A stretch of DNA of 64,000 nt from contig JAGGRA010000010.1 in the NCBI GenBank assembly GCA_018613035.1, positions 62,001 to 126,000 on the forward strand. The letters run 5' to 3'. Below the pieces are notes generated by a model. That model saw only the letters and a list, made by a program, of their open reading frames with translations. It was not told the DNA's origin and did no database searches. Made by a program: the position numbers and the translations under genes. Positions 36,975 to 44,597 of this stretch are shown here, piece by piece. How positions within the stretch are numbered: the first letter of the stretch is position 1; the number at the start of each line of letters is the position of its first letter. Source of the stretch: Pseudomonas sp. ISL-84 (lineage in GTDB: Bacteria; Bacillota; Bacilli; Bacillales; Cytobacillaceae).

Positions 36975-37067
36975 ATGGGTACCTTTGAAGTGTTATCTCT
37001 GATGATCAGTTTCGGTATGTTTGTAATCGCCATGCTTCAATTTACAGATAGAGACAGGGATTCTTGA
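36975..37067 (+). CDS. Putative holin-like toxin peptide (type I toxin family), 30 residues
   Basis: A tiny frame starts after AAGGAGGCGAT. The peptide begins MGTFEVLSLMISFG, continues as a single hydrophobic helix (MFVIAMLQF), and ends with charged TDRDRDS. This is the pattern of Bacillus BsrE/TxpA/YhzE-type peptides (MSTxxxLxxMxxFG...). Such toxins insert in the membrane and are silenced by an antisense RNA. I cannot prove an antisense promoter here. A strong terminator abuts the stop. Confidence 0.65.
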   Translation: MGTFEVLSLMISFGMFVIAMLQFTDRDRDS

Positions 37068-37091
37068 ACACGCTGCCTAAGCGTGTTTTTT
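37068..37091. terminator. Terminator between the toxin-like peptide and the selenoprotein candidate
   Basis: ACACGCT/AGCGTGT with a 5-base loop and T run starts one base after the toxin-like stop. It may also serve the minus-strand gene ending at 37109. Confidence 0.8.
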
Positions 37092-37108
37092 CTTCTTCCG
37101 TGCCTTCA

Positions 37109-37621
37109 TTATTTTGAAAGCTCCTCGTATTCCTCTTTTATTTCTTTAGCGGTTTTGTCGATTTCTTCTCCCCAATGGTCATTGACCGTATTGAACACGA
37201 TGTTGCCTTTGGTATCCATTAAGGCGTATCCTCTGAAAGCGGTGTCGCCATTTTTCATATCCGTCCGTTCAATCAATTCCATATTAGGATCTGATACGAA
37301 TGGAAGACTGTGGCCCATTTCTTCTTCAAGCGCATTATATAGCTCAAGCTGCTGCTCGGGCTGATCATTGCTGACGATATACATGTTCACGTCCATGCCT
37401 TCTAATTTACCCATGTTCTGATGCAACTCGACCAGTTGCTGCTGGCAGAGTCCTCAGGTGTAGGTGGTGATAAAAAAGAAAAGAGCTGGCTTGTCCTGCG
37501 GAAAAGTCACTTCATTGCTGTTCTGATCCTTTAAGGTAATCGGATCTTCGGCCTGATCCTGGCCGCAGGCCGTCAGGACAAGAAGAACGATTGCCATTAA
37601 AAGCATAAGTTTTCTTCGCAT
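37109..37621 (-). CDS. Thioredoxin-like lipoprotein, candidate selenoprotein (UxxC)
   Basis: Read from ATG 37621 (GGAGAT upstream), the frame encodes 170 residues if the TGA at 37456-37454 is read through. Residues 1-20 are a lipoprotein signal with lipobox LTAC. FFFITTYT is the thioredoxin beta1 strand, followed by UGA-GLC, then QQQLVELHQNMG. The UGA therefore occupies the first position of a CxxC redox motif (residue 56, resolving Cys 59). Downstream, LPFVSDPNMELI and GYALMDTKGNIVF complete an AhpC/TSA-like fold. A hairpin with a GGUC loop lies at 37439-37423. The alternative is a nonsense mutation or base error. Confidence 0.75.
37423..37439 (-). promoter_or_regulatory. Candidate SECIS hairpin
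   Basis: On the minus strand GCAACT and AGTTGC form a perfect 6-bp stem with loop GGTCG. The loop GG begins 20 bases after the UGA, compared with 18 in E. coli fdhF as I recall it, which also has a GGUC apical loop. A lower TCTG/CAGA pairing extends the stem. Confidence 0.65.
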
Positions 37622-37761
37622 AATATCTCCATTTCCTTGTAAAGTTTTATGTAAATGCTCTTATCATTATGGCAATCTTTTTAACATTTCTCAACTAAGA
37701 TGCCTTTTACCTTAAGGGTAAAGAGGGTACTTGACTAGATATAAATAGAAGGTAATTTGTA

Positions 37762-40429: not shown

Positions 40430-41692
40430 GTGAAAAAGACAAAAAATCGGTGGCTGATTGCCGCTTCCGCCGTGGGGATCCACATTTCAATCGGATCCGT
40501 CTACGCTTGGAGCAACTTCACCAATCCATTGATTGAGGAATTTGGCTGGACATCCAAGCAGGTACAATTAACATTTAGTTTGGCGATTTTATTTCTAGGC
40601 TTGTCTGCAGCCTTTCTGGGGCATTTCGTCGAAAAACATGGTCCAAGAAAAGCGGGACTGCTGGCAGCAGGATTTTTCGGAGCAGGTATGCTGGGCGCCG
40701 GTCTTGCAGTCAACCTTGGTTCCTTGCCATTTTTGTACATAACCTATGGCGTACTGGGTGGAATCGGTTTGGGAGTGGGCTATATTGCTCCAGTATCCAC
40801 ACTGGTAAAATGGTTCCCTGACCGCCGCGGATTTGCAACGGGCCTAGCGATTATGGGATTTGGTTTCGCCGCAGCGGTAGCAAGCCCAATTATGGACACA
40901 CTTATTAAATCTGTCGGTACGGCTAATACATTCTATATTCTAGGTGCCGCGTACCTAATCATCATGGCATTATCTTCTTTATACTTAGAACGGCCGCCTG
41001 CCGATTGGGCACCAGAGGGCATGAAGGAAAAAGCCAAAGCTGGAAAAATCAAAATCAAACAGGATTTGGCACAGTTAACAGCGAATGAAGCTGTCAAAAC
41101 ATCCCGCTTCTACTATTTATGGATTATGCTATTTATTAACGTAACTTGCGGGATTGCCATCTTATCAGCCGCGAAGCCTTTGGCACAGGAAAGCATTGGA
41201 TTAACAACAGCAGAAGCAGCAACACTTGTTGGTGTGCTGGGCATATTCAACGGATTGGGACGCCTGGCATGGGCATCCATCTCCGATTATATTGGCCGCC
41301 CGAACACGTATACGATTTTCTTCGTATCACAGATTGCTTTATTTCTGCTATTGCCTCACACAAAAGAAGCCATGCTGTTCCAAATTATGCTGGCCATTGT
41401 ATACACGATGTACGGTGGAGGGTTTTCGTCCATCCCGGCCTTCATCGGGGATGTTTTTGGAACGAAGCAGCTTGGCGCGATCCACGGATACATCCTTACA
41501 GCATGGGCTGCAGCCGGGTTGGCAGGTCCAATGTTCGCTGCATGGATGAAGGATTCAACAGGAAGCTATGCTTCAAGCTTAACAACCTTTGCTGGACTTT
41601 TTGTTGTAGCATTAGTCGTTTCCATTCTAATTCGATTTGATATTAAAAAATTGCGCAAGCAAAATGAAGCTAATGAGCGATTAGCAAGTTAA
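40430..41692 (+). CDS. OFA-family MFS transporter (oxalate/formate antiporter-like)
   Basis: This is a 420-residue, 12-helix major facilitator of the oxalate:formate antiporter family. VGIHISIGSVYAWSNFTNPL is the diagnostic helix 1. GVLGGIGLGVGYIAPVSTLVKWFPDRRGFATG is helix 4-5 with the signature, and GILSAAKPLAQESIG / GIFNGLGRLAWASISDYIGR mark the second half. The substrate is probably a small carboxylate such as formate or oxalate. GTG start after GAGGGGG. The long attenuator-type leader is shared with the molybdoenzyme gene downstream, which links the two in function. Confidence 0.87.
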   Translation: MKKTKNRWLIAASAVGIHISIGSVYAWSNFTNPLIEEFGWTSKQVQLTFSLAILFLGLSAAFLGHFVEKHGPRKAGLLAAGFFGAGMLGAGLAVNLGSLPFLYITYGVLGGIGLGVGYIAPVSTLVKWFPDRRGFATGLAIMGFGFAAAVASPIMDTLIKSVGTANTFYILGAAYLIIMALSSLYLERPPADWAPEGMKEKAKAGKIKIKQDLAQLTANEAVKTSRFYYLWIMLFINVTCGIAILSAAKPLAQESIGLTTAEAATLVGVLGIFNGLGRLAWASISDYIGRPNTYTIFFVSQIALFLLLPHTKEAMLFQIMLAIVYTMYGGGFSSIPAFIGDVFGTKQLGAIHGYILTAWAAAGLAGPMFAAWMKDSTGSYASSLTTFAGLFVVALVVSILIRFDIKKLRKQNEANERLAS

Positions 41693-42100: not shown

Positions 42101-42236
42101 AATCAGGGCAGATGGGTTATTTTTGCACTATTAGCCCATATACAATAGTAAAAAGCTAATTTAACCATCGAGAATTCAGAGAGAGTTTTCTCTATAAAAA
42201 TAGTAGGACTAGCATTAAATCTAAGGAGTGTTACGC

Positions 42237-44597
42237 GTGGGAAAGACGATACATCCAGGGCCACAGAAGAAAAAGGCTATGCCAGATCCAAAGCATTGGG
42301 TAAGCCCTGTGCCATTTGGGCTCGGTAAAATTAAGCCAAAGCATATGAGAGACACAGCAAAAATCCTTTGGGAAAACAAAGATAACCTCGGCTATGCCAC
42401 CAATATTTTAACAAAAGGTGTTTGCGACGGCTGTGCGCTTGGCGTTTCCGGACTTTATGATCAAACTTTGAAAGGGCCGCATGTTTGTACGACTAGATTG
42501 AACGTTCTTCGGTTGAATACAGCTGGTGCAATCAAACCTGAAATTCTGCATGCGGATATTGATGAGTTAAGAAAATATGACAGCACGGAACTTCGTAAAT
42601 TGGGGCGCATTCCGTATCCTATGATCCGCAGGAAAGGCGAGCGTAAATTCTCAAGAATTACGTGGGATGATGCGATGATTATGATCGCCGAAAAAATGAA
42701 GGTGCTTGATCCGAAGCAGTATGCATTTTACCTGACAAGCCGCGGAATCACGAATGAGTCGTATTATGTGGCCGGAAAAGTAGCTCGCTTCCTTGGCACT
42801 AACCATATAGATAACGCGAGCCGCATCTGCCATTCTCCTTCAAAAACGGCTTTGAAGCGTTCAATCGGGGTAGGAGCTTCAACAGCAAACTACCTGGACT
42901 GGATTGGAACGGACGTCCTCTTATTCTGGGGAAGCGTAGCATCCAACAGCTCGCCTGTTTCATCCAAGTACATGCTTGAGGCGAAGAAAAACGGCACTAA
43001 AATCATTGTCGTAAATCCCTATAAAGAGCCTGCGATGGATAAATACTGGATTCCTTCGAACCCGGAGTCCGCGTTATTCGGCACCAAAATTGCGGATGAC
43101 TTTTATCAGGTAAACATTGGCGGAGATATTGCGTTCATGCACGGGATCATGAAGCACTGGTTTGACATGGAAAGGCAGCAGTACGGCTCTGCGATTAATC
43201 ATACGTTTGTGAATGAGCATGTGAACGGCTATCAGGATTTAAAGCAGAAGGTGAAGGAACAATCATGGGATGACATTGTGGAATCATCCGGAGTAAGCAG
43301 AGAGCGCATTATTGAGCTTGCGGAGCTATTGGCAAATAGTAAAAATGCTGTTTATGCCTGGGCACTTGGCTTGACCATGCATTCTTTTGCAACAGATAAT
43401 ATTTCACAGGTTGCCAACCTTGCATTACTTCGCGGCCATCTTGGCAGAAAGCATAACGGATTAATGCCATTCCGTGGCCATTCATCTGTACAGGGCAGCG
43501 GAGAAATGGGTGCGGATCCGTTCGTTCTTCCTGGCGGAGACTTCTACGGAGACAATTTTACCCGCATCCAAAACCTTTGGGGCTTTGAGCTGCAAAAATG
43601 GCAGGGGGATATTGTTGGAGTAACATTGGAAAACATTATGCTGCCTGAAGATCATGAGCGCAAAATTAAGCTTTACTATCTTTCCGGCGGTAATTTCCTT
43701 GAAACGATGCCGGATCCGGACTTTATTGAAAAAGCATTGTCAGAACTGGATATCCGTGTCCACCAGGATATTATATTAAATACTTCCACTTTGGTTGACG
43801 CTAAGGAAGCCGTTATCGTTCTTCCTGCGAAAACCCGATATGAGCAAGAGGGCGGCGGTACTTCTACCTCGACAGAGCGAATGGTGTACTTTAGCCCTGA
43901 AATTGAGGGGAATAAGAACAAGGTGGAAGAAGCCCGTGAAGAGTGGAAGATTTATATTGATCTGGCAAAACGCGTAAAGCCTGAGACAGCCCATTTGGTT
44001 GATTTTAAAAATGCACAGGAAATCCGAGAAGAAATTGCGCTGGCCAATCCAAGCTATGATGGCATTCAGCATCTGAAGAAAGCGGGGGATGTCTTCCAAT
44101 GGGGCGGCGCCTGGTTATGTGAGGATGGGATATGCCCGACTCCGGATGGAAAAGGCCATTTGATTACGGTAGATATTCCTGACCTTGGCAAAAAAGAAGG
44201 CCAGTTCATCGTTACATCACGCCGCGGAAAGCAATTTAACTCTATGGTGTACAAAGAGGTAGACCCGCTGAATGGTGCCGGCCGCTATGACGTATTGATG
44301 AACGAGGAAGATGCACAGGATCTAAGCATCGCTGAAGGCGAAGGAATTGTGCTCTATAATGGCTTTGGCGTATTCCAGGGAAGAGCCAAGTTCGTCGACA
44401 TCGCCCGCGGCAACGTCGAAGTCCACTTCCCGGAAGGAAACTTCCTACTGCCAAGAGGACGCTACGAAAAGTTCGCCGGAATTCCAGACTACAATATCAC
44501 TGTAACCCTGGAAAAAGCAGACCGATACAATGCCCGGAAAGATGTTCAATATAATGAAAAACATATTGCTGATGACGACATTGATGCACCTGCATAA
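42237..44597 (+). CDS. FdhF/YdeP-family molybdopterin oxidoreductase (formate-dehydrogenase-like)
   Basis: This is a molybdopterin enzyme of about 786 residues. The N-terminal GVCDGCALGVSGLYD and HVCTTRLNVL pattern is that of the FdhF/YdeP group. WDDAMIMIAEKM, NASRICHSPSK (a Cys codon, TGC, at the usual Mo-ligand position), WGSVASNSSPVSSK and FRGHSSVQGSGEMG are cofactor-contacting blocks. The C-terminal cap begins FIVTSRRGKQFNSM. It could oxidise formate, but several YdeP-like enzymes have other or unknown substrates. No fdhD or electron-transfer subunit is adjacent. GTG 42237 follows AAGGAG. Confidence 0.87.
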   Translation: MGKTIHPGPQKKKAMPDPKHWVSPVPFGLGKIKPKHMRDTAKILWENKDNLGYATNILTKGVCDGCALGVSGLYDQTLKGPHVCTTRLNVLRLNTAGAIKPEILHADIDELRKYDSTELRKLGRIPYPMIRRKGERKFSRITWDDAMIMIAEKMKVLDPKQYAFYLTSRGITNESYYVAGKVARFLGTNHIDNASRICHSPSKTALKRSIGVGASTANYLDWIGTDVLLFWGSVASNSSPVSSKYMLEAKKNGTKIIVVNPYKEPAMDKYWIPSNPESALFGTKIADDFYQVNIGGDIAFMHGIMKHWFDMERQQYGSAINHTFVNEHVNGYQDLKQKVKEQSWDDIVESSGVSRERIIELAELLANSKNAVYAWALGLTMHSFATDNISQVANLALLRGHLGRKHNGLMPFRGHSSVQGSGEMGADPFVLPGGDFYGDNFTRIQNLWGFELQKWQGDIVGVTLENIMLPEDHERKIKLYYLSGGNFLETMPDPDFIEKALSELDIRVHQDIILNTSTLVDAKEAVIVLPAKTRYEQEGGGTSTSTERMVYFSPEIEGNKNKVEEAREEWKIYIDLAKRVKPETAHLVDFKNAQEIREEIALANPSYDGIQHLKKAGDVFQWGGAWLCEDGICPTPDGKGHLITVDIPDLGKKEGQFIVTSRRGKQFNSMVYKEVDPLNGAGRYDVLMNEEDAQDLSIAEGEGIVLYNGFGVFQGRAKFVDIARGNVEVHFPEGNFLLPRGRYEKFAGIPDYNITVTLEKADRYNARKDVQYNEKHIADDDIDAPA

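Follow-up and report, generated by a model that had tools for sequence, protein, structure and literature searches.

Predicted bacterial selenoproteins of the peroxiredoxin type have been catalogued before, and tables in two reviews from 2022 and 2026 list both a 'Prx-like thiol:disulfide oxidoreductase' (PF00578, with a UxxC or UxxU motif) and a 'redoxin family protein' (UxxC) as selenoproteins by prediction (PMC9312934, PMC13188914). The difference between UxxC and the TxxU motif of selenoprotein peroxiredoxins is also drawn in a figure legend (PMC1914089). Under Bacillales, a census from 2006 gives 3 selenoproteins in 3 families (PMC1794560), and the main text of the 2026 review has no word beginning with 'bacill', 'Bacillota' or 'Firmicutes' (PMC13188914). 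Here we describe a gene from this part of the bacterial tree whose in-frame UGA codon is almost certainly read as selenocysteine.

The window, i.e. the whole stretch of 64,000 nucleotides analysed here, belongs to a genome of 5.1 Mb in 100 contigs and carries on its minus strand a frame that runs from an ATG (37621-37619) to a TAA (37111-37109), with one TGA as its sole internal stop, followed by GGA CTC TGC (Table 1). The initial annotation had described this frame as broken only once and as having a Cys codon three residues past the UGA, and both its coordinates and the Cys at residue 59 are confirmed. It had also expected that annotation without selenocysteine would shorten the gene, and indeed a mechanical ORF listing yields a 55-residue ORF and a 105-residue ORF beginning at a TTG. 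The UGA was thought to follow a first β-strand, FFFITTYT; its position after this segment is correct, while FFF forms the third strand (46-50) of our structural model and not the first. Promoter-like sites such as the one in Table 1 occur 6 times in the stretch against 2.4 expected.

Table 1: Features of the predicted selenoprotein gene in the window.
Feature	Coordinates	Strand	Basis and remarks
Predicted selenoprotein gene	37109..37621	minus	170 codons + TAA, one in-frame UGA; predicted Prx-fold lipoprotein
Recoded UGA codon, residue 56 (Sec56 of UxxC)	37454..37456	minus	same site in homologues
Cys59 codon, partner of Sec56	37445..37447	minus	sole Cys after the UGA in 129/129 full-length distinct homologues
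Predicted bacterial SECIS hairpin, 6-bp stem, 5-nt loop GGUCG	37423..37439	minus	conservation, covariation, folding
Lipoprotein signal peptide ending in lipobox LTAC	37565..37621	minus	sequence; the lipid would sit on Cys19
Arg130 (of RG)	37232..37234	minus	invariant in 22 aligned rows; aligned with peroxiredoxin Arg
Ribosome-binding-site-like AAGGA/GGAG upstream of ATG	37627..37638	minus	seen in sequence
Promoter-like TTGAGA-17-CATAAT, TG ahead of -10	37666..37694	minus	consensus match only

The protein is predicted to be a lipoprotein with a peroxiredoxin fold. It matches the Pfam families AhpC-TSA (PF00578, 48.7 bits, cut-off 26) and Redoxin (41.4 bits, cut-off 26.6), and an AlphaFold2 model based on a 22-row alignment, with Sec entered as Cys, has a mean pLDDT of 89.9. 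The PDB structures closest to this model are peroxiredoxins with AhpE in first place (E 4.1e-11), a profile search against PDB sequences found AhpC first (5y63, E 2.8e-7), and in NCBIfam no family scored above cut-off for the window protein or its homologue L063. Of the original designation as a thioredoxin-like lipoprotein, the second half is borne out by the lipobox LTAC, and the fold is better called peroxiredoxin-type (AhpC-TSA). Among 95 homologues with a matched N-terminus the lipobox pattern is found in 86, while 5 have Phe in place of Cys and 4 miss the simple pattern but have a Cys nearby. In the subgroup of L039, L041 and L060 the sequence reads SAFGQ with Phe replacing the lipobox Cys, so the anchor may be an uncleaved signal there and not a lipid.

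The peroxiredoxin motif is PxxxTxxC, and residues 52-59 of the window protein read T52-T-Y-T-U56-G-L-C59. The motif is thus absent: Thr52 stands seven residues ahead of Cys59 where the motif has Pro, and Sec56 three residues ahead of it where the motif has Thr. Cys59 lies on the peroxidatic Cys column in all three profile alignments shown, and in two of them Sec56 lies without a gap on the Ser of SxxC; the third alignment and both single-sequence alignments contain a one-residue gap that puts the peroxiredoxin Thr on Thr55. We take the aligned peroxiredoxin residues to act as peroxidatic Cys, catalytic Thr/Ser and Arg, respectively. A VND segment is kept as well.

In order to follow the UGA codon through related bacteria we searched genome sets of increasing breadth. 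In the genus set 29 of 36 genomes were matched with 32 rows, of which 30 have a single TGA; the remaining rows are a remnant in G005 and, in G034, the front piece of a copy with a frameshift. The family set gave matches in 102 of 193 genomes at E 1e-10 or better, with one TGA in 117 of 118 rows and the front piece from G034 as the only row without. In a set of 397 genomes drawn from the order, 78 genomes, including 12 that also belong to the family set, gave matches at E 1e-9 or better, and 79 of 86 rows have one TGA and 7 have none. A phylum-wide profile search of 398 genomes returned 2 matches, both in the family of the window and none outside the order, and a tblastn search of the PLSDB plasmids at E 1e-8 gave no match. 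When the homologous DNA was examined, 141 distinct stretches contained exactly one TGA, always within UxxC, in a scan that took in part of the match rows and had the G005 remnant (L040) under its threshold; of the 7 rows without a TGA in the same scan, five belong to distant redoxins with CPVC and two are fragments (G034, G331). No Cys orthologue of the lineage was found among the best 9 to 18 first-look candidates that were scored per genome in the profile searches, a procedure which a Cys form could in principle slip past, although a close one would be expected near the top.

In every examined homologue that spans the site the TGA lies at the same aligned residue, and it is therefore more than chance. 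The 23 loci from named relatives, including Cytobacillus, Neobacillus, Niallia, Salinibacillus, Sediminibacillus and Fictibacillus, each have the TGA, and as the same base is present in separate assemblies of many species a sequencing error is untenable. Three sequence groups can be distinguished, namely that of the window (UGLC, UTLC and similar), a UDYC/UDFC group (L135-L154) and a far group with YFTG (L220-L233), and all examined members of the three have the UGA; some genomes possess two of the genes of these further groups. Random disabling lesions in relatives had been named as a possible objection, and the frames are otherwise open apart from degenerate copies in three genomes, a frameshift (L038 in G034), a short remnant (L040 in G005) and a C-terminal remnant (L239 in G331). 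Purifying selection acts behind the UGA as it does ahead of it, the median dN/dS being 0.125 after and 0.138 before the UGA, as calculated from 334 and 387, respectively, of 1,176 possible pairs of 49 rows, the other pairs falling outside the usable dS range. These values are rough since the median dS is above 1.

No neighbouring gene was common to all groups when about 3 kb on each side were compared at 24 loci. The Cytobacillus-like loci have neighbours in common, as do three Fictibacillus loci among themselves, and a PAS-type sensor gene is common to L055 and nine Cytobacillus-like loci. One gene, which we presume to resemble a VOC/glyoxalase-type dioxygenase, recurs near the selenoprotein gene, no more than 3 kb away and in varying places, in L056, L058, L059 and L061, which represent three genera.

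The source genome encodes the complete machinery for selenocysteine, all four of the genes looked for being present: SelA (474 bits, C23:179258-180355), SelB (373 bits, above cut-off, C59:59303-61165), SelD (427 bits, above cut-off, C23:112135-113061) and tRNA-Sec (60.3 bits, above the Rfam cut-off, C12:44315-44407), the latter also called tRNA-SeC(tca) by ARAGORN. Three matches to Fdh-alpha are above cut-off in this genome, and one of them (L247, C23:49894-51915) contains a TGA followed by His-Ala-Pro; in selD (L102) a TGA opens the UGCK motif. Both are known selenocysteine sites, as UxxK and UHxP are listed as such in PMC13188914. Past these codons the predicted folds have a loop of GGUCU in fdhA, at 18 nt, and of GUU in selD, at 33 nt, and both hairpins have a G at the start of the loop. 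Inside the window itself there is a Fdh-like gene (42228-44597; 327 bits to Fdh-alpha, cut-off 666) without an internal TGA, and the transporter gene upstream of it (40430-41692) presumably resembles an MFS oxalate/formate antiporter.

Across the family tRNA-Sec is matched above cut-off in 172 of 193 genomes, which contradicts the initial assumption that selenocysteine is rare in Bacillaceae, at least in the family examined, even if the cut-off may overcall, giving matches in 5 of 14 named control genomes against 2 of 14 for the SelA family. All 102 family genomes with the gene, including the one with the frameshifted copy (G034), have a tRNA-Sec match, and the gene is present in 0 of the 21 genomes without such a match, 20 of which are listed by name (13 of these from one genus) and the last follows by elimination. 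This association over 193 genomes takes no account of relatedness. Within the genus 33 of 36 genomes have tRNA-Sec and 33 of 36 match SelA strongly (at E 1e-138 or better), a 34th SelA match (G035) reaching only 23 bits, and the gene is absent from all three genomes without tRNA-Sec. Conversely, no intact copy is present in 6 of the 33 genomes with tRNA-Sec: four gave no match and the other two are those with the remnant (G005) and the frameshift (G034). The genome with the remnant has retained both tRNA-Sec and SelA. Several genus genomes (G008, G015, G016, G023, G029) show two tRNA-Sec matches above cut-off.

The perfect 6-bp hairpin GCAACT-GGTCG-AGTTGC noticed earlier is confirmed, beginning 14 nt and having its loop 20 nt past the TGA. 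According to a model of bacterial SECIS elements these have a loop of 3-9 nt with a G in the first two positions, an upper stem of 4-16 bp, 16-37 nt between UGA and loop and a free energy at or below -7.5 kcal/mol (PMC13188914), and our hairpin agrees with it in loop (5 nt), stem (6 bp), loop G and spacing (20 nt) and is borderline in energy with -6.5 kcal/mol when folded alone, a value as good as which was seen in 0 of 200 shuffles. Among 116 homologous hairpins 46 are at or below -7.5 kcal/mol, with a median of -7.4 kcal/mol, and a 39-nt segment of the window constrained to hold the hairpin gives -8.7 kcal/mol. If segments of 39 or 51 nt of the window sequence are folded freely, a competing hairpin of -13.6 kcal/mol is predicted instead, the segments being only mildly more stable than shuffles (9 of 200 and 26 of 200 as good, respectively). 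We rejected this energetically favoured fold as it is not conserved, all of its pairs being kept in 3 of 116 sequences compared to 105 of 116 for the GCAACT-GGTCG-AGTTGC hairpin. A search of 37050-37700 against Rfam, which may hold no bacterial SECIS family, gave four weak matches, none of them relevant and none a SECIS element.

The hairpin is conserved and covaries across the homologues. All 116 distinct downstream sequences form its five inner pairs and 105 form the outer pair, which is G-C in 90, U-A in 13 and C-G in 2 and is broken in the other 11, and the second loop position is a G in all 12 loop types. At pair 18-28, A-U is found in 49, G-C in 60 and G-U in 7 of the 116 sequences, and A-C in none. 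This pair connects downstream codon 6 (CAA/CAG) and codon 10 (TTG/CTG), which switch together silently (Fisher 1.5e-25, relatedness ignored). In a tree built from 129 distinct full-length proteins by a quick method without a mixture model, codon 6 has changed 19 times and codon 10 17 times, and for 11 independent pairs codon 10 moved together with codon 6 in 9.3 on average, stayed the same in 1.7 and moved oppositely in 0 (median p 0.004). Moreover, the Leu at codon 10 is encoded by TTG or CTG in 141 of 141 cases, while at the other Leu positions of these genes the two codons account for 520 of 2273. Nucleotide conservation may partly reflect amino-acid constraint, as QLV[EQ]L is a motif at the protein level, too, and the silent covariation answers this objection for one pair.

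Could the UGA simply end translation, with the remaining sequence either decaying as a pseudogene or being restarted as a second gene at the TTG at 37426? The two frames of the ORF listing and the degenerate copies in G005, G034 and G331 would fit such a scenario, but we regard it as extremely improbable: the stop is the same UGA and never TAA or TAG in 141 distinct stretches, both sides of it are under purifying selection, the gene is associated with tRNA-Sec across 193 genomes, and a start at the TTG, which is residue 66, would remove the redox motif. Another form of read-through, by a near-cognate Trp or a general element, would leave the hairpin a merely stimulating role. A stem-loop just past a stop codon can stimulate read-through, one does sit just past the UGA here, and the residue at the UGA is a predicted one. 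Nevertheless, Cys occupies this position in the closest relatives without a TGA (CPVC, L234-L238), the gene occurs in the 193 family genomes only alongside a tRNA-Sec match, and loop G and spacing fit the bacterial SECIS model (PMC13188914), so that this explanation is also highly improbable, if slightly less so than the former. Selenocysteine insertion by SelB is the best reading as it accounts at once for the codon, for the covariation of the hairpin and for the association with tRNA-Sec, and the sel genes, the conserved TGA, the hairpin and the co-occurrence with tRNA-Sec all support the original proposal that the gene is translated with selenocysteine.

As a whole we thus consider it very likely that the gene encodes a 170-residue, lipid-anchored redox protein of the peroxiredoxin fold with selenocysteine inserted in a UxxC motif. 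SelB carrying Sec-tRNA-Sec would bind the hairpin, which begins 14 nt past the UGA, so that selenocysteine enters at residue 56, and the product would be exported and held by a lipid on Cys19 at the outer face of the membrane. Cys59 would take the position of the peroxidatic Cys and Sec56, three residues earlier, that of the catalytic Thr/Ser of peroxiredoxins or of the first Cys of CxxC redoxins. Most likely, Sec56 would attack an extracellular peroxide or disulfide and be resolved by Cys59 through an Se-S bond, after which a membrane or extracellular thiol reductant could recycle the protein. Within this best explanation, and not excluding it, the protein might specifically be a peroxidase and not a thiol:disulfide oxidoreductase, a possibility we would put at somewhat below even. 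Peroxiredoxins are the nearest solved structures in both the profile and the fold comparison, Arg130 and the VND segment are retained, and the Sec is on the U side as in the glutathione-peroxidase entry with UxxT (PMC9312934); on the other hand, the missing PxxxTxxC motif, the lone Sec-Cys pair, which fits disulfide exchange, and the name thiol:disulfide oxidoreductase for the family with the same motif (PMC9312934) argue against it.

The gene adds a widespread, apparently Sec-only and, by prediction, surface-anchored selenoprotein lineage to the relatives of Bacillus, and shows how gene finding that is blind to selenocysteine truncates such genes. The covarying SECIS elements of the lineage, with their coordinated silent codon changes, also form a natural series in which one can study how an RNA signal constrains the protein motif QLV[EQ]L. 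We tentatively suggest, with rather less than even confidence, that this is an obligately Sec-dependent redox family of the membrane surface without a Cys orthologue, in which Sec replaced the catalytic Thr of peroxiredoxins and forms an extracellular Se-S couple. These spore-formers are mostly aerobic, and if the suggestion is true such a family would be one reason why they retain the selenocysteine code and would escape annotation that ignores selenocysteine.

Our search of the open-access literature, a scope outside of which subscription papers and preprints lie, did not find this lineage described; it is not described in the accessible parts of PMC9312934, PMC13188914, PMC1794560, PMC5029168, PMC1914089 and PMC11944866, and those of PMC8659212 make no mention of it. 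We file it next to the Prx-like thiol:disulfide oxidoreductase (PF00578, UxxC; representative WP_010940744.1) as the nearest catalogued kind, matched by domain and motif. Both share the AhpC-TSA domain, the UxxC motif and the status of a bacterial selenoprotein by prediction, whereas a lipoprotein signal and a VNDHWG segment at the C-terminus set the lineage described here apart, and no Cys orthologue of it was found. The Cys redoxins with WCPVC (L234-L238) have CxxC in the UxxC columns but are very distant (E about 1e-10 to 1e-9) and without TGA; an 85-residue piece of L236, the only one of the five scanned, reached 43.6 bits to the NCBIfam family SelL_rel_redox (cut-off 120). The 2-Cys peroxiredoxins/AhpC and AhpE are alike in fold, in the peroxidatic Cys aligned with Cys59 and in the Arg aligned with Arg130, but differ from the lineage, which has a Sec three residues before Cys59, no later Cys and a predicted export signal. 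Finally, the selenoprotein peroxiredoxin belongs to the same Pfam family (PMC13188914) and has its Sec in the same four-residue motif, yet at the opposite end, as TxxU and not as the UxxC found here.
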